Assembly: GCA_003447295.1 (NCBI GenBank)
Contig: DLZQ01000032.1
Span: 1-64,000, forward strand
Direction of reading: 5' to 3'
Source of the DNA: Lachnospiraceae bacterium
GTDB lineage: Bacteria > Bacillota > Clostridia > Lachnospirales > Lachnospiraceae
Length of the DNA: 64,000 bases
Shown here: one piece after another, positions 5,430 to 56,684 of the stretch
Position numbering within the stretch: the stretch's first letter is position 1
Layout of the letters: each line of letters opens with the position of its first letter
Notes under the pieces: model-generated
The model's database searches: none
What the model was told of the DNA's origin: nothing
Seen by the model: the letters and a program-made list of their open reading frames with translations, nothing else
Translations under genes and position numbers: made by a program

Positions 5430-7106
5430 ATGAGAAGTGATTCCGTTAAGACAGGAACTGCCCAGGCACCCCACAGAAGTCTGTTCAATGCGCTGGGATT
5501 TACCGAAGAAGAGAGAAGACGCCCCATGATCGGTATCGTCAGCTCCTTCAATGAGATCGTACCCGGACATATGAATCTGGATAAGATCACAGAAGCTGTA
5601 AAAATGGGTGTAGCCATGGCAGGTGGTATGCCGGTAGTATTCCCCGCCATCGCTGTATGTGACGGTATTGCCATGGGACATGTGGGAATGAAGTATTCCC
5701 TGGTGACCAGAGACCTGATCGCCGACAGCACCGAGTGCATGGCTATGGCACACGGATTTGACGGTCTGGTATGTATTCCCAACTGTGACAAGAATGTTCC
5801 CGGACTTTTGATGGCGGCAGCCAGAGTGAATATCCCCACTATCTTTGTATCCGGCGGTCCTATGTTAGCCGGTCATGTACACGGACAGAAGAGAAGCTTA
5901 TCCTCTATGTTCGAGGCAGTGGGAAGTGTGGCAGCCGGTACCATGACTATGGATGAACTGGCTGAGTTCGAGGAAAAGGTATGTCCTACCTGCGGTTCCT
6001 GCTCCGGTATGTATACCGCGAACTCCATGAACTGTCTGACTGAAGCCATTGGTATGGGACTTCGCGGCAACGGTACGATCCCCGCCGTATATTCCGAACG
6101 TATCCGTCTGGCAAAACATGCCGGCATGAAGATCATGGAACTGGTAGAGAAAAATATCCGTCCCAGAGACATCATGACGCCGGAAGCTTTTCAGAATGCC
6201 TTGACTGTGGATATGGCACTTGGATGCTCTACAAATACCATGCTGCATCTGCCCGCTATCGCAAGAGAAGCAGGTGTGGAACTGAACCTGGAGATCGCCA
6301 ACGAGATCTCTGCCAAGACTCCGAATCTGTGTCATCTGGCACCTGCCGGTCCTACTTATATGGAAGACCTGAACGAAGCAGGTGGTGTATATGCGGTAAT
6401 GAATGAACTGTCCAAGAAGGGACTTTTGAATCTTGACTGCCTGACTGCCAACGGTACGACCGTAGGAGAGAATATCAAGAATAGTGTCAACAAGAATCCG
6501 GAAGTCATCCGCCCTGTGGAGAACCCCTATTCCCAGACCGGCGGTATTGCTGTACTGAAGGGCAACCTGGCACCGGACAGCGGCGTGGTCAAGAGATCTG
6601 CTGTGGCACCGGAGATGTTGGTACACGAAGGTCCTGCCAGAGTATTCGACTGCGAAGAAGATGCTATTGATGCTATCAAGTCCGGTAAAATCGTGGCAGG
6701 CGATGTAGTAGTGATCCGTTATGAAGGACCTAAGGGCGGCCCCGGCATGAGAGAGATGCTGAATCCCACATCTGCTATTGCGGGCATGGGGCTGGGCTCC
6801 AGCGTGGCACTGATCACCGACGGACGTTTCTCCGGAGCTTCCCGTGGCGCATCCATCGGACATGTCTCTCCGGAGGCAGCAGTGGGCGGTCCGATCGCAC
6901 TGGTGGAAGAGGGCGATATTATCCGTATCAACATCCCGGAGAACAAACTGGATGTACTGGTATCCGACGAAGAACTGGCAGCCAGAAGAGCAAAATGGCA
7001 GCCCAGAGAGCCTAAGATCACGACCGGCTACCTGGCAAGATATCATGAACTGGTGACCAGCGGTAACCGCGGTGCGGTACTGGAAGCACCTTCTCAGAAA
7101 AACTAA
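5430..7106 (+). CDS. ilvD: Dihydroxy-acid dehydratase
   Basis: Dehydrates dihydroxy-acids to the 2-keto acids of valine and isoleucine synthesis using an iron-sulfur cluster. The 558-residue length is standard. Family motifs include CDKNVPG and [17 protein letters not shown], which supply cluster cysteines, and the C-terminal [14 protein letters not shown]. The ribosome site ahead of ATG 5430 is weak (purine-rich), the only soft point. It lies between leuB and ilvB in the same direction with short gaps. Confidence 0.96.
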
Positions 7107-7138
7107 GCAATCATTAAAATAACCGGAGGGATTTTGCA

Positions 7139-8818
7139 ATGCAGTTAACAGGATCGGAAATTCTGGTAGAATGCCTGAAGGAGCAGGGGGTAGATACCGT
7201 ATTCGGTTACCCCGGCGGGGCAATCCTTAATATTTATGATGCACTTTATAAGCACAGTGGGGAGATCAGACATATTCTGACTTCCCATGAACAGGGAGCG
7301 GCACATGCGGCGGACGGCTATGCGAGAGCTACGGGAAAAGTAGGTGTCTGCATGGCTACCAGCGGACCCGGCGCTACGAACCTGGTCACCGGTATCGCTA
7401 CGGCTTACATGGATTCCGTACCGATGGTAGCGATCACCGCAAATGTTACCTTACCTTTACTCGGCAAGGACAGCTTTCAGGAGGTGGATATCGCCGGCGT
7501 GACCATGCCCATTACGAAGCATGGTTATATTGTGAAAAACGTGGAGATCCTGGCAGATACCATCCGCAAGGCATTCCATATCGCCAGGAGCGGAAGACCC
7601 GGTCCTGTCCTGATCGATATTACGAAGGATGTGACGGCAGCTACCTGTGAGTACACGCCCATGACGATTCAGCAGGAGGAGAGAGTGACTCGTTACACCA
7701 GGGAAGAATTGATGCTGGTAGCAGAGATGATCCACAAGGCGAAAAAACCATACATCTATCTGGGTGGCGGAGCCATCATTTCCGAGGCTAGTGCTGAGGT
7801 GGCAGAATTTGCAGAGCTGATCGATGCACCGGTATGTGATACTCTGATGGGTAAGGGAGCCTTTGATGGAAGAAGTGAGCGCTATACCGGCATGATCGGC
7901 ATGCATGGTACCAAGACTTCGAACCTGGGAGTCAGCGAATGTGATCTGTTGGTGGCACTGGGTGCCAGATTCTCCGACCGTGTGACAGGTAACCCGAAAA
8001 AGTTCGCGGAGAATGCAAGAATCATCCAGCTGGATGTGGATGCTGCGGAGATTAATAAGAATATCCGTGTGGACGCCTCTCTGGTAGGCGATCTGAAGAA
8101 AACTCTGACGGAATTAAATGCCTGCCTGTCCAAACAGGAACATCCGGAGTGGATGGCGCATATAACGGAACTGAAGGAAAAATATCCTCTGAAATACGAT
8201 GACGAAAATCTGTCCTGTCCTTATATCATGCAGGAAATTGACCGTGTGACGAACGGAGAAGCCATCATCACCACAGACGTGGGACAGCATCAGATGTGGG
8301 CGGCACAGTATTATCATTATACGAAGCCCCGTACCTTCCTGTCTTCCGGGGGCTTAGGTACCATGGGTTACGGTCTGGGAGCCTGCATCGGTGCGCAGAT
8401 CGGACAGCCGGATAAGGTCTGCATCAATATTGCAGGCGACGGATGCTTCCGCATGAACATGAATGAACTGGCTACTGCCAGCCGTTATAACATTCCCATT
8501 ATCCAGGTAGTCATCAACAACCAGGTGCTTGGCATGGTAAGACAGTGGCAGACACTGTTCTATGGGAAACGCTATTCCCAAACAGTACTGAAGGATAAGG
8601 TGGATTTCTGTAAGGTGGCAGAAGGACTGGGCTGTACCGCCATCCGCGTGACCCAAAAGGAAGAAGTGGCACCCGCTATCGAGAAAGCCATTGCCCTGAA
8701 GGCACCGGTAATGATCGAGTGTATGATCCCGGAGGATGATAAGGTATTCCCCATGGTTCCGGCAGGAGCCCCCATCAGTGAAGTATTTGACGGAGATGAT
8801 TTGAAAAGGCAGTCCTGA
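7139..8818 (+). CDS. ilvB: Acetolactate synthase, large (catalytic) subunit
   Basis: Thiamine-diphosphate enzyme that condenses pyruvate with pyruvate or 2-ketobutyrate, the first common step of branched-chain amino-acid synthesis. The 559-residue product has the N-terminal FGYPGGAILNIYD, the catalytic glutamate in SHEQGAAHAADGYARATG, and the cofactor motif from GDGCFRMN to VVINNQ. GGAGGG precedes the ATG. No regulatory subunit gene (ilvN) is found next to it or elsewhere in the window. The stop overlaps the start of the following transpeptidase gene by one base (TGATG). Confidence 0.95.
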   Translation: MQLTGSEILVECLKEQGVDTVFGYPGGAILNIYDALYKHSGEIRHILTSHEQGAAHAADGYARATGKVGVCMATSGPGATNLVTGIATAYMDSVPMVAITANVTLPLLGKDSFQEVDIAGVTMPITKHGYIVKNVEILADTIRKAFHIARSGRPGPVLIDITKDVTAATCEYTPMTIQQEERVTRYTREELMLVAEMIHKAKKPYIYLGGGAIISEASAEVAEFAELIDAPVCDTLMGKGAFDGRSERYTGMIGMHGTKTSNLGVSECDLLVALGARFSDRVTGNPKKFAENARIIQLDVDAAEINKNIRVDASLVGDLKKTLTELNACLSKQEHPEWMAHITELKEKYPLKYDDENLSCPYIMQEIDRVTNGEAIITTDVGQHQMWAAQYYHYTKPRTFLSSGGLGTMGYGLGACIGAQIGQPDKVCINIAGDGCFRMNMNELATASRYNIPIIQVVINNQVLGMVRQWQTLFYGKRYSQTVLKDKVDFCKVAEGLGCTAIRVTQKEEVAPAIEKAIALKAPVMIECMIPEDDKVFPMVPAGAPISEVFDGDDLKRQS

Positions 8819-47860: not shown

Positions 47861-47872
47861 GCAAACGGTTGC
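47861..47872. promoter_or_regulatory. LacI-family-type operator
   Basis: GCAAACGGTTGC is a palindrome with a central CG, the form of LacI/GalR-family operators, about 8-20 bases after the expected start point, where a repressor would block transcription. Two TTGCGCA copies follow (47869-47888). No LacI-family gene is in the window. Confidence 0.45.
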
Positions 47873-47920
47873 GCAAACAAGTTGCGCACGACAGGGAGGA
47901 TGCTGAGTGGGATATAGCAG

Positions 47921-47949
47921 TTCCGACCGGTGCGGGACACCGGTCGGAA
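47921..47949 (+). other. Stable leader hairpin before the galactanase
   Basis: TTCCGACCGGTG pairs perfectly with CACCGGTCGGAA around a five-base loop. There is no T-run, so it is more likely an mRNA-stability element than a terminator. Confidence 0.6.
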
Positions 47950-47970
47950 AGAAGAAAGGGAAGGTGCATT

Positions 47971-50900
47971 ATGAAGAAAAGAGACTGGAAGAGAAGTCTG
48001 GCATTTTTATGTGCGACGGCTCTTATCGCAGGAAACTTAAGTGAATTCGGACCGTTGACCCGGGTAAAAGCAGAGGAGACGAATCTGTTTACGGACGGTG
48101 ATATGGGTGATGACGAAATGGGAGACAGCACGGATGCCGCAAATTTTTGGGCGAATCAAAATTGGTATTTTGAAGGAGATACCTGGAATTGCACAAGTCA
48201 GGTAAAATATTCTATTTGGGCCAAGCAGGCAGGCAACTGTGGACTGGAGCTTGATTTTAATAAAGCAGATGGAACTGTCTGCATGTATCAGGAAATCGGT
48301 TCGCTGGAAGCAGGAAGCTATACTGTAACGGGATACATTAAAGATGGCAGTGGAAGTGACGGCACGATTGCTCTGTACCATGCAACAAAAGACGGCAGTT
48401 GGAATGTGTCAGAGAAATCGACACAACTGACGGCAGAATATGTCATGTTCACAGATGAATTTACGGTGGCAGAAGCTGTCAGTAACTATAAAGTCGGATT
48501 CCAAATTACAAGTAAAAAAGATGCGTGGATTTACATAGATACACTGACACTTACGAAGAAGACTTCGGATTCAGCAGAAGAGACTCCGGCACCGGAAGCA
48601 ACCGAATCCCCGGAGCCCACAGCTACGCCGGAAGCTTCTGTCACTCCTGCACCGGAGAACAATATTCTGTATTCTGAGGACTTTGAAGATAAGAAGTTTG
48701 ACTGGACGGAGAATTGGAGTACAGAAACCAAGGGAAAATCAGAATCAGCAACCGGAGAGTGTGATGCTAACTCCTCCAAAGTATGGAATTATTATTCCAC
48801 AATAGCACAGAACATGACAGCTACCACCACGGTGACAGCATCCGATGCCGGTAACTATAAAGCATCTTTCCTGACAGCCGGAGAGAACGTGACCGGAACC
48901 ATCAGCCTTACAGCCGGAGATAGAAAAGTATCGGCGGATCTGACCGCAGGAGGCTGGGATGTTTATACTCCTGCAGAGACCGATGCATTAACCGTGGAGG
49001 CAGGTACGAAGCTTACCATTACCATTTCTCTGGATATTGCAGCAGGCGGCTATCTGAAGATAGATGACATCCTGGTGACGAAAGCAAGTGATGCTGAAAT
49101 TCAGGCTGAAAAAACAGCAAAGGCAGAAGAATTACAGAGTCTGATCACAGAATATAAAGCATTAAAAGAGACAGATTATACTGCTGACAGTTGGAAAGAT
49201 CTGAAGGAAGCCCTGACAGAAGGCGAAAACTTCCTGCAGGCACTGAATGGCGATTATACTTCCACCACCGTAACAGAGATCGAAGAGAAGATCACGAATC
49301 TGAAAAAAGCGAAAGATGAATTAAAAAGCGCTACTGTGGAACAAGCCGGAATCAATGTGGAAAAGGTCAATGGACTGACGAGTGATTTCATCGGCGGTGT
49401 GGATATCTCATCCTACAGAACTCTGAAAGACAGCGGTGTAAAATATTATGATTTTGAAGGAAATGAATTGGATGATGCCGGATTTTTTAAGCTGCTGAAA
49501 GATAGCGGTATTAACTACGTACGTATCCGTGTATGGAATAACCCTTACGATGCATCCGGTAACGGCTACGGCGGTGGCAATAATGACCTGCAGAAAGCGG
49601 TGGACATGGGTAAACTGGCTACAGATGCAGGAATGCGTGTCATGATCGATTTCCACTATTCCGATTTCTGGGCAGATCCTGCCAAGCAGAAGGCACCGAA
49701 AGCCTGGGCAGACATGACGATTGCGGAAAAGACAGCAGCAGTAAAAGATTATACGATGAATAGCCTGAACACTTTACTGGATGCAGGCGTCGATGTCGGA
49801 ATGGTACAGGTCGGTAATGAGACAAACAACGGAATTGCCGGAGAGAACGGTCTGGAGAACGCCAATACAACAGCAATTTTCCGCGCCGGATGTGAAGCAA
49901 TCCAACAGGTGGAGCAGGAGCGGAGCAGAGTAATCAAGGCAGTAGTGCATTTCGCAAATCCTGAGAAACAGAATTATATGACCTATGCCGATGAATTAGC
50001 CAAAACAGGTGTGGAATATGATGTATTTGCCTCTTCTTATTATCCTTACTGGCATGGGACTCTGGATAACCTTAAAAACCAGTTAAATGCGATTACGGAA
50101 AATTACGGAAAAGAGGTCATGGTAGCGGAGACCTCCTGGGCGACCGGCTTAGAGGACAGTGACGGTCATGCAAACACCGTCCGCGAAGGCAATAACGATG
50201 CAGGCATGGATTATGATTTCAGCATCTACGGACAGGCGAAGGAATTGCGTGAGGTGATCAATACCGTCGCAGAAATGAACAAAGGTATCGGAGTGTTTTA
50301 TTGGGAGCCTGCATGGATCCCTGTAAAAGTGTATGATCCGGAAGCAGAAGATGCCGAGCAGACCCTTGCAACGAATAAGGCAGCCTGGGAAAAATATGGT
50401 TCCGGCTGGGCAGCTTCCTATGCGAAAGAATATGATGCCGAGGATGCCGGAAAATGGTACGGCGGATCCGCAATAGACAATCAGGCATTGTTTGATGCCT
50501 CCGGTCATCCCCTGGAAACCTTAAAGATATTCAGTTATGTAAAAACAGGTGCGGAGACGGCTAAAAAAATCAGTACTGTTAAAAATGCAGATGCAATCGA
50601 GATAGAATTAGGAAGTAGCTTTGCTTTACCGGAGACGGTAAAAGTTACCTATTCAGATTATACTTCCGGAGCAGAAAACGTAACCTGGAACGCACAGGAT
50701 GTTGCCACAGTTAACACCAAGGCAGCAGGAAAATATACTGTGAACGGAACAGTATCTCTGGAAGGAGAGACCTATCAGACGAAATGCGTGATCACCGTGA
50801 ATCCGCAGAACCTTCTGATCAATCCCCGGTTTGAGGATGGAGACAACGCATGGACATTAAGCGGAACCGGTATTAAAGTTCTAATGGATGGCAAGGACTC

Positions 50901-52062
50901 CAAAGATGGAAATGGATATCTGCATTTCTACAATGACAGTGATTTTACCTATGATGTAACACAGACAATTACGCTGGATGCAGGAATTTATCAGTTCGGA
51001 GGATATCTTCAGGGTGGTGGAAACTTAGCAGCAGACAGCTACGAGGTCTATGCCTCCGTAGATGGTAAGACACAGACAGCAGAAGGCGAATTGAACGGCT
51101 GGAAGAACTGGAGCAATCCGGAGGTACAGAATATCAAGATCACTAAGGATGGAACAAAAGTTACGGTAGGAATCCGGGCAACTGCATCTGCCGGAGCCTG
51201 GGGATCCTGGGACGATATGTACCTGAACAAAACCGGAGAAGTTACCCCGGCGCCTGTAGTTACCCCGCAGCCGACCGCAACCCCGGCACCTGCAACAGCA
51301 CCGGAAACAGAGAGCAGCTCTGCGGACAAGGATACATCTGCACCGGTACAGACAGTAGACTGGAATACCGTGACTTCCAACGTACAGGCAAAGATCGCGG
51401 AAGTGACGCAGTATCCGAATATTAACAGCGTGAACATGAATATCGTATGCTCCGGAGAGACCAGACTCTCTGCCGCAGTGCTGGGAAGCATCAAAGGCTC
51501 GGACATGACACTGGCACTTCATAGCGGCAACGGTGTGGCGGTCAGTATCAGCGGACAGGATCTGAAAGGCACAGCCCTGAATGCATTACAGAACATTGAT
51601 CTCACCGTGGACAGCAATGCACAGAATATCCCGGCAGCCATGGCAGCATCCAAGAAGGCAGAAGCCACAAAACAGCTGTCTGTAAAAGACACCGGAGCAT
51701 TTCCGGTAGCTGTGAACATTCATGTGAATGTCGGAGCAGAAAACAGTGGAAAATACGCAAATCTTTATCGTTATAATGCCGAGAAGAAACAACTGGAATA
51801 CTGTGGCTCCTTCCCCGTGACCAGGAATGGTCAGTCCATGTTTGCTCTAAAGCAGGGCGGTGATTACATGGTAACGGTAACCGCGGCACAACCGAAGGAG
51901 ACCGTATATTTTAGCAGTGGCGATTATGCAGTGAAAGCAGGAGATACCCTGTCTGCCATTGCCAAACGCAACCATATGTCATTGGCGGAACTGAAAGCCA
52001 AAAACCCGCAGATCAAGGATTTACATAAGATCTGCGTGGGACAGAAATTGAATTTGAATTAA
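47971..52062 (+). CDS. Secreted multidomain GH53 endo-beta-1,4-galactanase with LysM anchor
   Basis: A 1363-residue extracellular enzyme predicted to cut beta-1,4-galactan of pectin side chains. Order: signal peptide (to about 37), carbohydrate-binding-like module (to 190), Pro/Thr linker, second such module (230-370), FIVAR-like helical module (375-460), GH53 barrel (468-860) with acid/base E617 in VGNET and nucleophile E720 in VAETSW, an Ig-like module, a module resembling CBM61 (946-1090), a TPAP-rich linker, an unassigned domain (1130-1305) and a C-terminal LysM repeat (1311-1363). LysM would hold it on peptidoglycan in place of an LPXTG anchor. Module names other than GH53, FIVAR and LysM are less certain. 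Confidence 0.9.
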   Translation: MKKRDWKRSLAFLCATALIAGNLSEFGPLTRVKAEETNLFTDGDMGDDEMGDSTDAANFWANQNWYFEGDTWNCTSQVKYSIWAKQAGNCGLELDFNKADGTVCMYQEIGSLEAGSYTVTGYIKDGSGSDGTIALYHATKDGSWNVSEKSTQLTAEYVMFTDEFTVAEAVSNYKVGFQITSKKDAWIYIDTLTLTKKTSDSAEETPAPEATESPEPTATPEASVTPAPENNILYSEDFEDKKFDWTENWSTETKGKSESATGECDANSSKVWNYYSTIAQNMTATTTVTASDAGNYKASFLTAGENVTGTISLTAGDRKVSADLTAGGWDVYTPAETDALTVEAGTKLTITISLDIAAGGYLKIDDILVTKASDAEIQAEKTAKAEELQSLITEYKALKETDYTADSWKDLKEALTEGENFLQALNGDYTSTTVTEIEEKITNLKKAKDELKSATVEQAGINVEKVNGLTSDFIGGVDISSYRTLKDSGVKYYDFEGNELDDAGFFKLLKDSGINYVRIRVWNNPYDASGNGYGGGNNDLQKAVDMGKLATDAGMRVMIDFHYSDFWADPAKQKAPKAWADMTIAEKTAAVKDYTMNSLNTLLDAGVDVGMVQVGNETNNGIAGENGLENANTTAIFRAGCEAIQQVEQERSRVIKAVVHFANPEKQNYMTYADELAKTGVEYDVFASSYYPYWHGTLDNLKNQLNAITENYGKEVMVAETSWATGLEDSDGHANTVREGNNDAGMDYDFSIYGQAKELREVINTVAEMNKGIGVFYWEPAWIPVKVYDPEAEDAEQTLATNKAAWEKYGSGWAASYAKEYDAEDAGKWYGGSAIDNQALFDASGHPLETLKIFSYVKTGAETAKKISTVKNADAIEIELGSSFALPETVKVTYSDYTSGAENVTWNAQDVATVNTKAAGKYTVNGTVSLEGETYQTKCVITVNPQNLLINPRFEDGDNAWTLSGTGIKVLMDGKDSKDGNGYLHFYNDSDFTYDVTQTITLDAGIYQFGGYLQGGGNLAADSYEVYASVDGKTQTAEGELNGWKNWSNPEVQNIKITKDGTKVTVGIRATASAGAWGSWDDMYLNKTGEVTPAPVVTPQPTATPAPATAPETESSSADKDTSAPVQTVDWNTVTSNVQAKIAEVTQYPNINSVNMNIVCSGETRLSAAVLGSIKGSDMTLALHSGNGVAVSISGQDLKGTALNALQNIDLTVDSNAQNIPAAMAASKKAEATKQLSVKDTGAFPVAVNIHVNVGAENSGKYANLYRYNAEKKQLEYCGSFPVTRNGQSMFALKQGGDYMVTVTAAQPKETVYFSSGDYAVKAGDTLSAIAKRNHMSLAELKAKNPQIKDLHKICVGQKLNLN

Positions 52063-52069
52063 AAAATAG

Positions 52070-52106
52070 AATGGGACTCCGAGGCTGATTTGGGGTTCCA
52101 TTTTTG
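52070..52106 (+). terminator. Intrinsic terminator after the galactanase
   Basis: AATGGGACTCC pairs with GGGGTTCCATT with a mismatch and G-U pairs, then TTTTT. Confidence 0.6.
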
Positions 52107-52135
52107 AATTAATAGCTGCATGTGTAAATAAAAAA

Positions 52136-52161
52136 GGTAACACAATTGATATTGTGTTACC
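52136..52161. repeat. Left recombination-site-like repeat (and recombinase terminator)
   Basis: Near-perfect palindrome with 11-base arms GGTAACACAAT around a four-base centre. Read on the minus strand it begins GGTAACACAATATCAA, which matches the plus strand of the right repeat at 52938 over 23 of 25 positions. On the minus strand it is followed by a T-run (52131-52135), so it also forms the recombinase gene's terminator. Confidence 0.75.
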
Positions 52162-52168
52162 CTTGTGT

Positions 52169-52759
52169 TCATAGTATGATCTCCTGAAAAATTTTATCCC
52201 GGTCATCCTGCTCAATGCCAAGATATCGTTTGGTCACTTCATAAGACGAATGATTATAGATGCTGACCAGCATTGCCGGCTGTACGCCCTGCTGCCAGGC
52301 ATGATATCCGAAGGTTTTGCGAAGGGAATGACAGCAGATCACGCCGGGGATATTGTAATAAGCTGCCACCTTTTTGATGATGCGAAAAGCCTGCACCCGA
52401 CTGATAGGTTCATTTTTATTGCTGTGGGGAAAAAGATACTTTTCTGGCTGAATAGGTTTTTGCTCCTTTCGAAGCTGTGCCTGATAATTTTGAAGACATG
52501 CGTGAATATTATGATTGATATAGATGCAGGAGGTCTTTCCCGTCTTCTGCTCAATGATCTCAATATGCTCCTGCCATCTGTTTTGAGAAAAGTTATAAAC
52601 ATCTTCCCACCGCAGAGTAAGCAAATCCGAAATCCTCAGTGCAGTATTCAAGCCCAGGATCACTAACAATTGGTTTCTGGTATTGGGGTGGATTTCCTTA
52701 TAGTAGTTTTTAAAATTTTTCAGATCCTCCAGGTTACGAATTGGTTGTGCTGTATTCAT
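52169..52759 (-). CDS. Stand-alone tyrosine recombinase (FimB/FimE-sized)
   Basis: A 196-residue site-specific recombinase made of the catalytic domain alone, the size of the FimB/FimE inversion enzymes. The full active site is present: R42 in ALRISDLL, K72, H144 and R147 in HSLRKTF, H170 and nucleophile Y179 in VTKRYLG. Start ATG 52759 has a perfect AAGGAGGA seven bases upstream; the longer reading to 52945 would cross the sigma-28 promoter. The gene lies alone on the minus strand between two matching repeats and next to the flagellin operon, which suggests it switches flagellin expression. It is not accompanied by phage genes. Confidence 0.88.
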   Translation of the reverse strand: MNTAQPIRNLEDLKNFKNYYKEIHPNTRNQLLVILGLNTALRISDLLTLRWEDVYNFSQNRWQEHIEIIEQKTGKTSCIYINHNIHACLQNYQAQLRKEQKPIQPEKYLFPHSNKNEPISRVQAFRIIKKVAAYYNIPGVICCHSLRKTFGYHAWQQGVQPAMLVSIYNHSSYEVTKRYLGIEQDDRDKIFQEIIL

Positions 52760-52892
52760 CTGATTCCTCCTTGAAATTAGTGTAAGTCGCATAAATCCGG
52801 CGTTTTTATATATCTGTGAACTATAACATATACGTCCCGGGGCTGCATTTACTTTGGCAAATGAGGGGGTTAAAATTTTTTCAAAAAAGGGG

Positions 52893-52919
52893 TTAAGTTT
52901 TCTGTGGGCGTACCGATAT
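52893..52919 (+). promoter_or_regulatory. Sigma-28 (flagellar) promoter for csrA-flagellin
   Basis: TTAAGTTT, 11 bases, ACCGATAT, against the sigma-28 consensus TAAAGTTT-N11-GCCGATAA: 7 of 8 and 6 of 8 matches with exact spacing. It is the only promoter I can find for csrA and flagellin, and it lies inside the segment bounded by the two recombination-site-like repeats. Confidence 0.75.
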
Positions 52920-52937
52920 ACTATGTGAAAGCAAAAA

Positions 52938-52962
52938 GGTAACACAATATCAAGTTTGTTAC
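52938..52962. repeat. Right recombination-site-like repeat
   Basis: Begins GGTAACACAATATCAA and ends TGTTAC. It matches the minus strand of the left repeat at 23 of 25 positions, including the central ATATCAA expected to be the strand-exchange region. It lies just after the expected sigma-28 start point, so it is transcribed into the csrA leader. Confidence 0.75.
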
Positions 52963-53028
52963 ATTACGATTACTATTTCCAAAACACAGCAAATTATAAG
53001 GAAATAATCGATTCAAGGAGGAATGGCT

Positions 53029-53286
53029 ATGCTGAGATTATCGGTGAGAGATGAAGAGTTTCTGATGATCGGAGACGATGTGAAGATTGTATTTTTGGGA
53101 AGCAGCGGCGGACAGACACGTATCATGATCGACGCCCCCAAGGATGTGAACATCGTACGAAGCAAGGCCATTGAAAAACGGATCCAGGATCCGGAGCTTC
53201 TGGCGACGATCCCGAAGTATTACAAGAATCCGGAAGGTACCACCAAGAAGAAAAAATCCAACGTCGTGATCGTACAGAACAAATAA
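53029..53286 (+). CDS. csrA: Carbon storage regulator CsrA
   Basis: RNA-binding translational regulator, 85 residues. It shows the CsrA core: MLRLSVRDEEFLMIGDDVKI and the RNA-contacting IDAPKDVNIVRSKA. The C-terminus is longer and more basic than in minimal CsrA proteins (KKKKSNVVIVQNK). ATG 53029 is set by AAGGAGG seven bases upstream; the ATG at 53023 is too close. It is co-transcribed with flagellin, and the flagellin leader carries a matching CsrA target. In Bacillus the antagonist FliW is nearby; no fliW is in this window. Confidence 0.93.
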   Translation: MLRLSVRDEEFLMIGDDVKIVFLGSSGGQTRIMIDAPKDVNIVRSKAIEKRIQDPELLATIPKYYKNPEGTTKKKKSNVVIVQNK

Positions 53287-53360
53287 CTTCAGATATTGTG
53301 GGACAAAAGCTTGCTAACAATGCGGAATCCTAGGGCCGCAGTAACTATTAACCACACACC

Positions 53361-53382
53361 GCAGATAAACGGATGTATCTGC
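53361..53382 (+). promoter_or_regulatory. CsrA-binding hairpin in the flagellin leader
   Basis: GCAGATA and TATCTGC form a 7-base stem presenting AACGGATG in the loop; the site ATAAACGGATGT matches 10 of 12 positions of the CsrA consensus. A second GGA lies in the flagellin ribosome site GGAGGT (53399-53404), 17 bases downstream, the two-site layout used by Bacillus CsrA on hag. Confidence 0.65.
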
Positions 53383-53412
53383 AACACTTTTTACACATGG
53401 AGGTAAATTATT

Positions 53413-54861
53413 ATGGTAGTACAACACAACTTAACAGCTATGAACTCTAACAGAATGTTAGGATTAACCACCGCTTCTCAGGCAAAGTCCACCGAGAAAC
53501 TGTCTTCCGGTTACAAGATCAACCGCGCAGCTGATGATGCAGCAGGCCTGTCCATCAGTGAGAAGATGAGAAAGCAGATCAGAGGTCTGACACAGGCTTC
53601 TTCCAATGCACAGGACGGCATCAGTGCAGTACAGACCGCTGAAGGTGCTCTGAACGAAGTTCAGGATATGTTACAGAGAATGAATGAACTGGCTGTAAAG
53701 GCTGCCAACGGTACTCAGTCTGAAGATGACAGAAGCTATATCCAGAACGAAATTGATCAGTTAACCACTGAGATTGATCGTGTTGCTGAAACCACCAAGT
53801 TCAACGAGACCTATCTGCTGAAGGGCGATCAGGACAATGAGAAGGCATATACTTATACTTATGGAACAGCAACAAATAAAGTTGCTACAGTTACAATGCC
53901 GGCAACAGATTCTCAGAAGGGGACAAAGCTTACAGTAGCATTTAAGGATACTGCTAGCGGAGATGCTCAGAATGAAGTTGCTAAACTGATTAGAGATCAG
54001 GGATTAAGTGTAACTTATACATCAGTAGCAAGTACTACGGCCAATAAATTTGATGTTACAGCATCTGTTTCTTTAAATGGCACAGATAAATATTCTGTTG
54101 CTAAAAACGGTAAAGATTATGATATTAAGGATAGTAAGGGAAATGCTATTGCAACCATCACAGTTACCAATACAGGATTGGGAAATACTAAAGATGATAA
54201 AATAGAAGGTTCCGAGACTATCACAGCAAGCGAAGCAAAGGCTGGTTATAGTAATGGAGAGACCATTAAGTATTATGATAAAGATGGAAATGGCATCCCT
54301 GAGAATGCACTTGGAAAGTATTTTTCATCTACATCAGCTGGTGGAACAGTTACTTCTACTCCGAGAAGTGATGCACCTCAAATATATGATGCTCTTGGAA
54401 ATAAGATTACTGCAGCAGCAGCTGATGTAACCGGTAAACAGGATCTCACTGGTGCCTTAACTTTGACACTTCATGTGGGTGCAGATGCTACATCCAATAA
54501 CCAGATTAGCGTAAACCTTGATGCTATGTCTGCTAAGGGTCTTGGCGTAAACGGATTAAAGGTTGACGGCGCAGATGATACTAACGCTAAGAATGCTATC
54601 GAGACAATCAAGGAGTCTATCCAGAAAGTCTCTACCCAGCGTTCCGCACTCGGTGCTGTTCAGAACCGTCTGGAGCACACCATCAGCAACCTGGATAACG
54701 TTGTAGAGAACACCACCAGCGCAGAGAGCCAGATCCGTGATACCGATATGGCTACTGAGATGGTTAAGTACTCCAACAACAACATCCTGGCTCAGGCAGG
54801 TCAGGCTATGCTGGCTCAGGCTAACCAGTCCAACCAGGGTGTACTGTCTCTGTTACAGTAA
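53413..54861 (+). CDS. hag: Flagellin
   Basis: Filament protein of 482 residues. Conserved D0/D1 helices frame both ends (from MVVQHNLTAMNSNRML to FNETYLLKG; from QRSALGAVQNRLEH to NQSNQGVLSLLQ), with a variable middle of about 230 residues that is richer in A/T codons and low-complexity Lys/Asp/Thr than the ends. The TLR5-contact segment reads QRMNELAV (88-95), keeping the Q, R and L positions of the Salmonella QRVRELAV. Translation is probably limited by CsrA. A strong terminator follows. fliC is the equivalent name. Confidence 0.95.
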   Translation: MVVQHNLTAMNSNRMLGLTTASQAKSTEKLSSGYKINRAADDAAGLSISEKMRKQIRGLTQASSNAQDGISAVQTAEGALNEVQDMLQRMNELAVKAANGTQSEDDRSYIQNEIDQLTTEIDRVAETTKFNETYLLKGDQDNEKAYTYTYGTATNKVATVTMPATDSQKGTKLTVAFKDTASGDAQNEVAKLIRDQGLSVTYTSVASTTANKFDVTASVSLNGTDKYSVAKNGKDYDIKDSKGNAIATITVTNTGLGNTKDDKIEGSETITASEAKAGYSNGETIKYYDKDGNGIPENALGKYFSSTSAGGTVTSTPRSDAPQIYDALGNKITAAAADVTGKQDLTGALTLTLHVGADATSNNQISVNLDAMSAKGLGVNGLKVDGADDTNAKNAIETIKESIQKVSTQRSALGAVQNRLEHTISNLDNVVENTTSAESQIRDTDMATEMVKYSNNNILAQAGQAMLAQANQSNQGVLSLLQ

Positions 54862-54918
54862 TCTTAACCACAGTTTGATCCAAAACATTTTTAGAATTAG
54901 TTGTGTAAAAACTAACAT

Positions 54919-54956
54919 AAAAAGGTTCCACCGGAGGATTCCGGTGGAACCTTTTT
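54919..54956 (+). terminator. Strong terminator after flagellin
   Basis: A perfect 16-base stem (54919-54934 with 54941-54956) around AGGATT, ending in TTTTT. Confidence 0.9.
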
Positions 54957-55155
54957 GCTGTGAACAGCCTGAAAATACCAGTAATACAGCACTTGGTAAA
55001 AATGCACAAAATCCAAATCCGTGAAAATAGCCAATTTCAACATACTGAATTTTGTATACTTATTTCGTAGAAAATCATAGGAAAACACCCCTCGTATAAT
55101 ATCTTTTAGATACATAAATACATGTATCCTGATTAATAAGTTACTAAATAAATAT
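54957..55155. other. Gene-free stretch between flagellin and the IS element
   Basis: AT-rich with stops in all frames. I see no gene, terminator or repeat here. Confidence 0.5.
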
Positions 55156-55426
55156 TGTTCAATAGGCTTAGTTAAGCCCATGATATAATTGTCCCAGTGT
55201 CAATCAGGTAATAGTTCTTTCCCCCCCTGTTGAACCAGTAATGGTTGCTTCATAAATAGTCTGTTCCCCTGACATGGAAGTTAGCTTCAAACCGGCTGGC
55301 TGTTTGCTTAAGTACATGGACTACCATCTAGCAGTGTGGTTTCGCATCTATCCATCTTAAGCTGGATTCTTATATGCGAGGGTGTCGATGCTCCATGATC
55401 ATGGGTTTTACCAAGCCGATTGAACA
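55156..55426 (+). ncRNA. Candidate bridge-RNA region of the IS110 element
   Basis: In the IS110 group the bridge RNA, which pairs with both target and donor DNA, is encoded upstream of the transposase. Here a 29-base inverted repeat (55156-55184 against 55398-55426, 25 of 29 matching) encloses about 210 bases with local hairpins. The enclosing repeat is directly visible; its role as the RNA is inferred from the family. Confidence 0.4.
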
Positions 55427-55457
55427 CTTTAATCTACAACGAAAGAAGGTGATTACA

Positions 55458-56684
55458 ATGAACACACTTTACGTCGGTATTGATGTAAGCAGCAAATCCA
55501 ATGTCGTTTACTTAATGCTTCCAAATGGTGATAAGCACAGTAATTTTTCTGTTGCAAACTCACACGAAGGTTCCACCCAGTTGGTAAAAAGAATTCTTTC
55601 TGCTTTAACTTCACATTCCCTTGACACGGTTCTAATCGGTCTTGAAGCAACCTCTGTTTATGGAGACAATCTCGTGTACTTCTTAAGAGAAGATGCCACT
55701 CTGGCACCGTTTAACAGAAAGATTCATGTCCTCAATCCTAAGCAGGTCAAAAAGTTTCATGACGCTTATAATGACCTTTCAAAGAATGATTATGTGGACT
55801 CTTTTGTTATTGCTGACTGCCTGCGTTTCGGTAGAATCAACAAAGAGGTATATATGGGAGACTATCGTTACAAAGCTCTCCAGAACCTCACACGGGCACG
55901 TTTCTTTGCTGTTCAAAATCTGGTAAAAGAAAAGCAGCGATTTATGAATGTGCTGTTCAAGAAGTATTCTACGATGACGCAGGAGAAGGTCTTCAGCGAT
56001 ACCTTCAGCACTACCGCCCTTGCTGTCTACGATGAATTTGAATCCGCAGAAGCACTGGCAAATATGGACTTACATGAGCTTACTGACTTTATCATTGGAA
56101 AAGGAAAGAATCGTTTTCCTGATCCTGATGCAGTAGCCAAAGCCATACAGAAAGCTGCCCGCAGTTCTTACCGTTTACCCAAAACGGTAAATGATTCTGT
56201 CAATCAGGTGCTTTCCATATCCATAACCTCCATGAAGGCATTGGAATCTCAAATAAAAGAGTTCGATAAAGCTATTAAAGCCCAAATGGAACTCTTGCCA
56301 AACGTATTGATATCCATTCCGGGTATCGGACCTGTTTATTCAGCCGGAATCATAGCTGAAATTGGCGATATCAATCGTTTTAACAGTCAGGCTGCTCTTG
56401 CTAAATATGCAGGACTTGCCTGGAAGCAACACCAGTCCGGTGGCTTCGAGTCCGAAGTTACACGGCTCATTCCATCCGGCAACCGATTTTTAAAGTACTA
56501 TCTGTGTGAAGCTGCATTTTCTCTTGTAAGATGCGACAAGGAATACAGCGACTTTTACCACCTCAAATATAAAGAGGTAAACAGATGCCAACACAAACGT
56601 GCACTCGCATTAACTGCCCGTAAATTTGTGCGCTTAGTCTTTCGACTGCTGAAAGGCAATCGCCTATACTGTCCAGCAAAGTAG
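55458..56684 (+). CDS. IS110-family DEDD transposase
   Basis: A 408-residue serine-dependent, RuvC-like transposase. The N-terminal DEDD domain shows YVGIDVSSKSNVVY, GLEATSVYGDNLVYF and KNDYVDSFVIADC; the C-terminal Transposase_20 domain has SIPGIGPVYSAGIIAEIGD and a serine-containing HQSGGFESEV region. ATG 55458 has AAGGTG before it; the longer reading from 55374 crosses the inverted repeat. It looks intact, so the element may be active. Confidence 0.9.
   Translation: MNTLYVGIDVSSKSNVVYLMLPNGDKHSNFSVANSHEGSTQLVKRILSALTSHSLDTVLIGLEATSVYGDNLVYFLREDATLAPFNRKIHVLNPKQVKKFHDAYNDLSKNDYVDSFVIADCLRFGRINKEVYMGDYRYKALQNLTRARFFAVQNLVKEKQRFMNVLFKKYSTMTQEKVFSDTFSTTALAVYDEFESAEALANMDLHELTDFIIGKGKNRFPDPDAVAKAIQKAARSSYRLPKTVNDSVNQVLSISITSMKALESQIKEFDKAIKAQMELLPNVLISIPGIGPVYSAGIIAEIGDINRFNSQAALAKYAGLAWKQHQSGGFESEVTRLIPSGNRFLKYYLCEAAFSLVRCDKEYSDFYHLKYKEVNRCQHKRALALTARKFVRLVFRLLKGNRLYCPAK

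Follow-up and report, generated by a model that had tools for sequence, protein, structure and literature searches.

Introduction

Parts of one account of the Salmonella phase switch (PMC9368917) describe the Hin segment as carrying hin together with the fljBA promoter, and FljA as suppressing fliC, an effect presented there as promoter binding. For C. difficile, sections of PMC5386303 and PMC7446863 report that the flg switch, located in the 5' UTR of flgB, lacks a functional promoter and acts via Rho, that cwpV in its OFF form produces an intrinsic terminator, and that RecV acts on more than one switch. The fimE terminator is given as Rho-dependent in the sections of PMC5386303 that deal with it.

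Here we describe a related arrangement in a Lachnospiraceae bacterium (contig DLZQ01000032.1), found within a stretch of 64,000 nucleotides that is called the window below. A putatively invertible segment of ~0.8 kb, containing a recombinase gene and an outward-facing sigma-28 promoter, lies immediately 5' of a csrA gene and a flagellin gene. Judging from the sequence of the window and its relatives, we consider it very probable that this segment is a self-contained invertible promoter flipped by its own recombinase. The original prediction had proposed such recombinase-driven inversion, and it gained support from a contig end in the nearest relative compared that fits the predicted OFF junction, from relatives carrying the opposite orientation, and from the agreement of crossover centers within loci.

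Layout of the Locus

The features of the locus, in window coordinates, are as follows.

47869-52062, GH53 glycoside hydrolase gene, the leftmost of the genes described (open reading frame and Pfam)
52133-52164, minus strand, putative distal recombination site, with the core of the left repeat (IRL) at 52137-52161 and a 14-bp stem that leads into a T-run (repeat search, terminator scan and fold)
52169-52759, minus strand, tyrosine recombinase of 196 aa, within the putatively invertible segment (open reading frame; PF00589, E 9e-21; alignment)
52894-52919, plus strand, predicted sigma-28-type promoter TAAG-N15-CCGATAT, inside the segment and facing csrA-flagellin, the ON orientation (motif)
52930-52965, plus strand, putative csrA-side recombination site, with the core of the right repeat (IRR) at 52938-52962, a degenerate outer arm, a weak hairpin and no T-run after it
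53023-53286, plus strand, cassette csrA paralogue of 87 aa, the first gene 3' of the invertible promoter (PF02599, E 1.6e-17)
53361-53382, plus strand, predicted CsrA-binding hairpin with ACGGAT in its loop, in the flagellin leader (z −1.4 for this hairpin stretch alone)
53413-54861, plus strand, flagellin of 482 aa (PF00669, PF00700)
54919-54956, no strand assigned, strong hairpin with A- and T-runs on its flanks, just 3' of the flagellin gene (terminator scan on the minus strand, and direct reading)

The last of these hairpins is likely a bidirectional terminator. The csrA gene more likely starts at 53029 than at 53023, as the start at 53029 has the better ribosome-binding-site spacing and aligns with residue 1 of solved CsrA. 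Its product belongs to the CsrA family, matching solved CsrA/RsmE chains in the PDB with E values down to 4.9e-8. A search of 52000-55400 against Rfam returned 0 matches. The ribosome-binding regions of the recombinase and csrA genes contain an exact 13-base inverted repeat (52763-52775 and 53012-53024), which probably reflects shared Shine-Dalgarno contexts. Just downstream of the flagellin gene, an open reading frame at 55374-56684 resembles, judged by eye, an IS110-type transposase.

At 196 aa, the recombinase corresponds to little beyond a catalytic domain, and PF00589 was its sole Pfam match. Residues R42, K72, H144, R147, H170 and Y179 were among the columns that were invariant across all 19 sequences of an alignment; these we take to be the catalytic set R-K-HxxR-H-Y of tyrosine recombinases. 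The protein can thus be assigned to the tyrosine recombinases, with all active-site residues in place as originally predicted. It does not group with the FimB/FimE-type invertases, since its scores of 26.5 and 29 bits against PRK09870 and PRK09871 compare with NCBIfam cut-offs of 221 and 222. Nor is it a serine recombinase of the kind found with Hin and fljBA, given that it matches PF00589 only.

Distribution Among Relatives

Relatives were collected in one scan of species genomes, from which the best 80 of at least 544 were taken as named loci. Adding the window and two second copies brought the total to 83 recombinase loci, a non-random sample that includes near-copies and loci sharing one genome. 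The 80 loci were labeled mostly as Lachnospiraceae or as genera of that family, and they include Roseburia porci, R. faecis, Butyribacter intestini, Lachnospiraceae bacterium A2, GAM79 and many metagenome bins. A csrA or flagellin gene was present within 1.5 kb of the recombinase in 73 of the 83 loci; the other ten recombinases, some of which lie at contig ends, had neither gene within that distance. Ten neighboring proteins were inspected in seven of these ten loci, and apart from one locus near fliD they gave unrelated Pfam matches or none. In that locus (L098, 442-3678) the recombinase relative sits near fliD and not near a flagellin gene, and other flagellar parts may also be switched.

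Matches to the recombinase (E ≤ 1e-10) were present in 24 of the 61 relatives, and in 16 of 37 in the genus of the window. Seven of the 61 genomes had two or more matches, some of them partial or distant. Of 299 genomes drawn from across the family, 51 had a match to the recombinase profile (E ≤ 1e-20), 21 of them above 200 bits, and the weaker ones could represent different recombinases. Among relatives, the device recurs without being universal. One csrA-flagellin cassette (L073/L214, on G022:C47) has a recombinase match covering residues 1-34 only and is possibly a decayed switch.

Promoter Position and Orientation

The predicted promoter of the window consists of TAAG at 52894-52897, a 15-base spacer and CCGATAT at 52913-52919. 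It adjoins the right repeat and points to csrA, so that it does aim at csrA-flagellin as originally stated. The arrangement is that of an invertible promoter, with an outward promoter, recognized by motif alone, inside inverted repeats whose centers match. In the 68 loci where a pair of recombination sites was found, 61 segments had a strict sigma-28 motif facing outward at one end only, none had one at both ends and seven had one at neither end, and an outward motif of this kind appeared in 1.1% of shuffled cases. Two layouts were distinguished, with the promoter at the 5' end of the recombinase in 20 segments, as in the window, and at its 3' end in 41. When 82 of the 83 recombinases were placed in a tree, the 20 members of the 5' class all fell within one 23-row clade (support 99/92), the other three rows of which had no assigned promoter.

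No strict sigma-28 motif lay between the csrA-side site and the flagellin gene in any of 63 loci (63/63, window included), and a sigma-70 scan of the csrA leader gave 8 matches where 8.0 were expected from shuffles. The earlier statement that the only visible flagellin promoter is inside the segment thus holds for the strict sigma-28 motif, while a sigma-70 promoter may exist in the csrA leader. We infer that the invertible promoter would be the main source of csrA-flagellin mRNA. In the ON orientation, that of the window, transcription from it would pass through the csrA-side site into csrA and the flagellin gene.

The orientation could be classified in 59 of the 68 loci, the other nine being unclassifiable. 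Five were ON (the window, L081, L117, L150 and L153) and 54 were OFF, so the comparison with related strains that had been proposed as a way to find the opposite orientation did find it. L117, which is ON, has 72–75% segment DNA identity with L124 or L143, which are OFF and have csrA on the opposite side. In two loci (L070 in G029, 5471-7660; L080 in G013, 6226-8193) the segment has a flagellin gene on either side, the two being divergent, and its sigma-28 promoter faces one of them; flipping there would choose between two flagellins.

The nearest relative compared, G001, has 51% of sampled 31-mers in common with the window. Its assembly is split at the repeats, which form the end of contig C48 (10,429 bases) and the start of contig C47 (11,396 bases). 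The last 40 bases of C48 are those of the csrA-side (ON) junction of the window (40/40). The start of C47 agrees at 40/40 with the predicted OFF distal junction, in which the left outer arm is joined to the promoter-side inner arm, and at 37/40 with the ON left junction, so that three bases separate ON from OFF at this end, in an assembly that may mix strains. Within G001 the 16-base half-site is confined to these two contig ends, and no match to the central part of the segment was obtained in the assembly. Both outer flanks are thus joined to the same segment end, as expected if both orientations were present in the sequenced population. Among 23 loci checked for contig ends at the sites, no second case like G001 was found.

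The strong excess of OFF loci would also fit an ancient switch that is now mostly locked, with populations fixed, mostly in the OFF state, and the window representing one of the rare strains locked ON. In keeping with such locking, the recombinase of G022 is matched only at residues 1-34 beside csrA, and the degenerate csrA-side outer arms could slow recombination. We nevertheless regard it as unlikely, because the recombinase frames are open and their presumed catalytic residues invariant (19/19), because the ON rows require changes on the tree in both classes (two in the 5' class, or one when only well-supported branches are counted, and three in the 3' class), and because both junction types are present in G001.

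Crossover Sites and the Inverted Register

The repeats at 52137-52161 and 52938-52962 match at 23 of 25 positions in inverted orientation, and their centers (TTGATAT and ATATCAA) are identical, which confirms the repeats as originally described. This pair scored 19 in the inverted-repeat finder, compared to a maximum of 13 when one flank was shuffled (164 trials over the locus set). The site finder returned no pair in 15 of the 83 loci, some of them at contig ends and R. faecis among them. In the 68 loci with pairs, the central 7-mers were identical (7/7) in the inverted register in 62, compared to only 2.5% of between-locus pairs, an agreement that is inflated within loci by the finder scoring the whole repeat, including its center. 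A control with mismatched flanks bounds this inflation: a score of at least 16 was reached by 61 of the 82 true pairs and by 60 of the 492 mismatched ones, and in none of the 164 shuffles. The mismatched-flank positives indicate that related loci share site sequence. The loci with site pairs had 45 distinct centers, which agree within a locus and differ between loci.

Tyrosine recombinases require identity in the center that is exchanged, and matching inverted centers therefore indicate sites built for inversion. The recombinase, which we infer performs the flip, would bind the palindromic arms, exchange strands in the shared asymmetric center (TTGATA/TATCAA) and turn the ~0.8 kb between the sites around.

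As the window repeats are imperfect palindromes, their arms match in both registers, and excision had been named as a competing outcome on account of a 16-base word that also occurs as a direct repeat. The direct repeat, which contains AAAAAGGTAACACAAT, does exist, and the segment could then be a small mobile element that leaves or integrates via these words. In the direct register, however, centers matching at six or more of seven positions were seen in 0 of the 68 loci, compared to the 62 with full identity in the inverted register, which argues for inversion and not excision. The proximity of most of the recombinases (73/83) to csrA or flagellin is also unlike that of a roaming element. Excision or integration was rejected on the direct-register test and appears highly improbable.

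A separate observation concerns L094 (~4773 and ~5639) and L208 (1795-1820), which are on contigs of equal length (827,256 bases). A csrA-flagellin cassette that has one site, and no recombinase in the stretch examined, has its site sequence in common with a recombinase segment ~100 kb away on, judging by length, the same contig, hinting at a large inversion or at separated parts.

The Distal Site as a Candidate Terminator

The recombinase gene had been predicted to end at a T-run terminator, and by fold and terminator scan this terminator proved to be the left site itself. Read on the minus strand, the distal site of the window folds at −16.9 kcal/mol (z −5.5), and the C47 end of G001, which fits the OFF junction and enters the same outer arm, gives −19.0 kcal/mol (z −5.7) with a U-run after it. 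The value for the csrA-side junction was −4.3 kcal/mol (z −0.1). Defining terminator-like as a mean energy of −8 kcal/mol or lower with a T-run of 4 or more, the outward reading was terminator-like at the distal site in 54 of 66 loci and at the csrA-side site in two. Of the two stems, the distal one was the stronger in 58 loci and the weaker in four. On these predictions, the distal crossover site should double as an intrinsic terminator, a point that goes beyond the original prediction.

Under the proposed mechanism, the promoter in the OFF orientation would be reversed and would reach the distal site within ~20 bases of its −10 element. The distal outer arm would there complete a strong hairpin with a T-run, forming an intrinsic terminator, so that the OFF promoter should fire into a stop at which termination would presumably occur. 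At the csrA-side site the outer arm is degenerate, so that the RNA hairpin would be weak and polymerase should pass; the simplest explanation would be selection against terminating the csrA-flagellin transcript. The distal site could in this way combine crossover with a transcription stop, acting on the recombinase in ON (in the layout of the window) and on the sigma-28 promoter in OFF. Read-through of the recombinase transcript into csrA after a flip, which had also been suggested, is consistent with the weak hairpin at that junction (−4.3 kcal/mol). That the repeats are mere terminators of the recombinase and its neighbors, alike by coincidence or through shared terminator sequence, would account for the good intrinsic terminator at the distal site, yet this reading was rejected on the center test and the weak csrA-side hairpin and is scarcely credible, as the csrA-side site is terminator-like in only 2/66 loci and still keeps the same asymmetric center, centers agree within loci and differ between them, and opposite orientations occur.

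Flagellin Cassettes and a Possible CsrA Layer

G001 contains two csrA-flagellin cassettes, on C1 and C48, in addition to a flagellin gene without adjacent csrA on C4 and a more distant flagellin on C10. A csrA copy on C4, 40% identical to that of the window, lies ~6 kb from the C4 flagellin gene. Close cassette csrA (E ≤ 1e-10) was detected in 27 of 146 genomes, all in one of 49 genera. Hairpins with GGA in the loop, the expected motif for CsrA binding, were found at −55 to −22 in the leaders of 63 of 79 cassette flagellins and 13 of 17 others without adjacent csrA, with frequencies of 4.6% and 7.4% in the respective shuffles. Their presence in cassette and non-cassette leaders leads to a speculative reading of the cassette CsrA as FljA-like.

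An extra flagellin and a co-transcribed regulator are probably switched on and off in these gut bacteria. More tentatively, and as a reading that is less likely than not, we suggest a combinatorial choice of flagellin that would have evolved independently of that in Salmonella. In genomes such as G001, beside a flagellin gene without adjacent csrA, two or more cassettes would each have their own inverting sigma-28 promoter and a private crossover center. A cassette turned ON would supply its own flagellin along with a CsrA paralogue, and the latter, in a FljA-like role, would block translation of the remaining flagellins by way of the GGA-loop hairpins in their leaders. The distal site, acting as a terminator, would keep OFF tight.

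Significance

We regard the locus as a genuine phase-variation switch that recurs among relatives and is of a known kind. New are its csrA-flagellin target, the presence of both recombinase and promoter on a single segment, in two layouts, and the crossover site, which appears to double as a terminator. This union of a crossover site with a terminator half makes for a simple design rule. In the titles and abstract beginnings searched, which covered few subscription journals or preprints, we found no description of an inverting promoter before csrA-flagellin in Lachnospiraceae; the main inverton survey is reportedly that of Jiang et al. 2019.

Gut Lachnospiraceae have flagellins that are prominent immune antigens. 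If inversion sets flagellin expression, then the presence of the gene in a genome does not equal its expression, populations may be mixed, and ordinary metagenomic reads would suffice to tell the orientation. Sigma-28 promoters were predicted for flagellin genes of Eubacterium and Roseburia in one study, which could not locate a promoter for some of them (PMC3720852). The terms "recombinase", "integrase" and "phase vari" each occur 0 times in its main text. An inverting promoter is a possible explanation for those Roseburia and Eubacterium genes whose promoters were not located.

Comparison with Known Systems

The switch works like fimS or hin-fljBA and belongs to neither. As in C. difficile flg and cwpV with RecV, so far as the sections cited above describe them, a tyrosine recombinase operates a switch in a Firmicute, with flg affecting flagella and the OFF form of cwpV making a terminator. 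Unlike in the C. difficile flg/RecV system, the promoter, the crossover site with its putative terminator half and the recombinase here form one unit beside the flagellin gene.

In E. coli fimS, a small catalytic-domain tyrosine recombinase likewise flips a short, promoter-bearing segment that is flanked by inverted repeats, and orientation also alters the termination of a recombinase transcript. The present locus differs from fimS in having the recombinase inside the segment, a csrA-flagellin target, a sigma-28-type promoter and a distal site resembling an intrinsic terminator.

Salmonella hin-fljBA, as far as it is described in the parts of the account cited above, shares with this locus a promoter and recombinase gene on the invertible segment and an ON state that drives a flagellin together with a regulator, in that case FljA, which suppresses the other flagellin. 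Hin is a serine recombinase, whereas the enzyme here is a tyrosine recombinase and a CsrA paralogue precedes the flagellin gene, with repression of the main flagellin being hypothetical in this locus.
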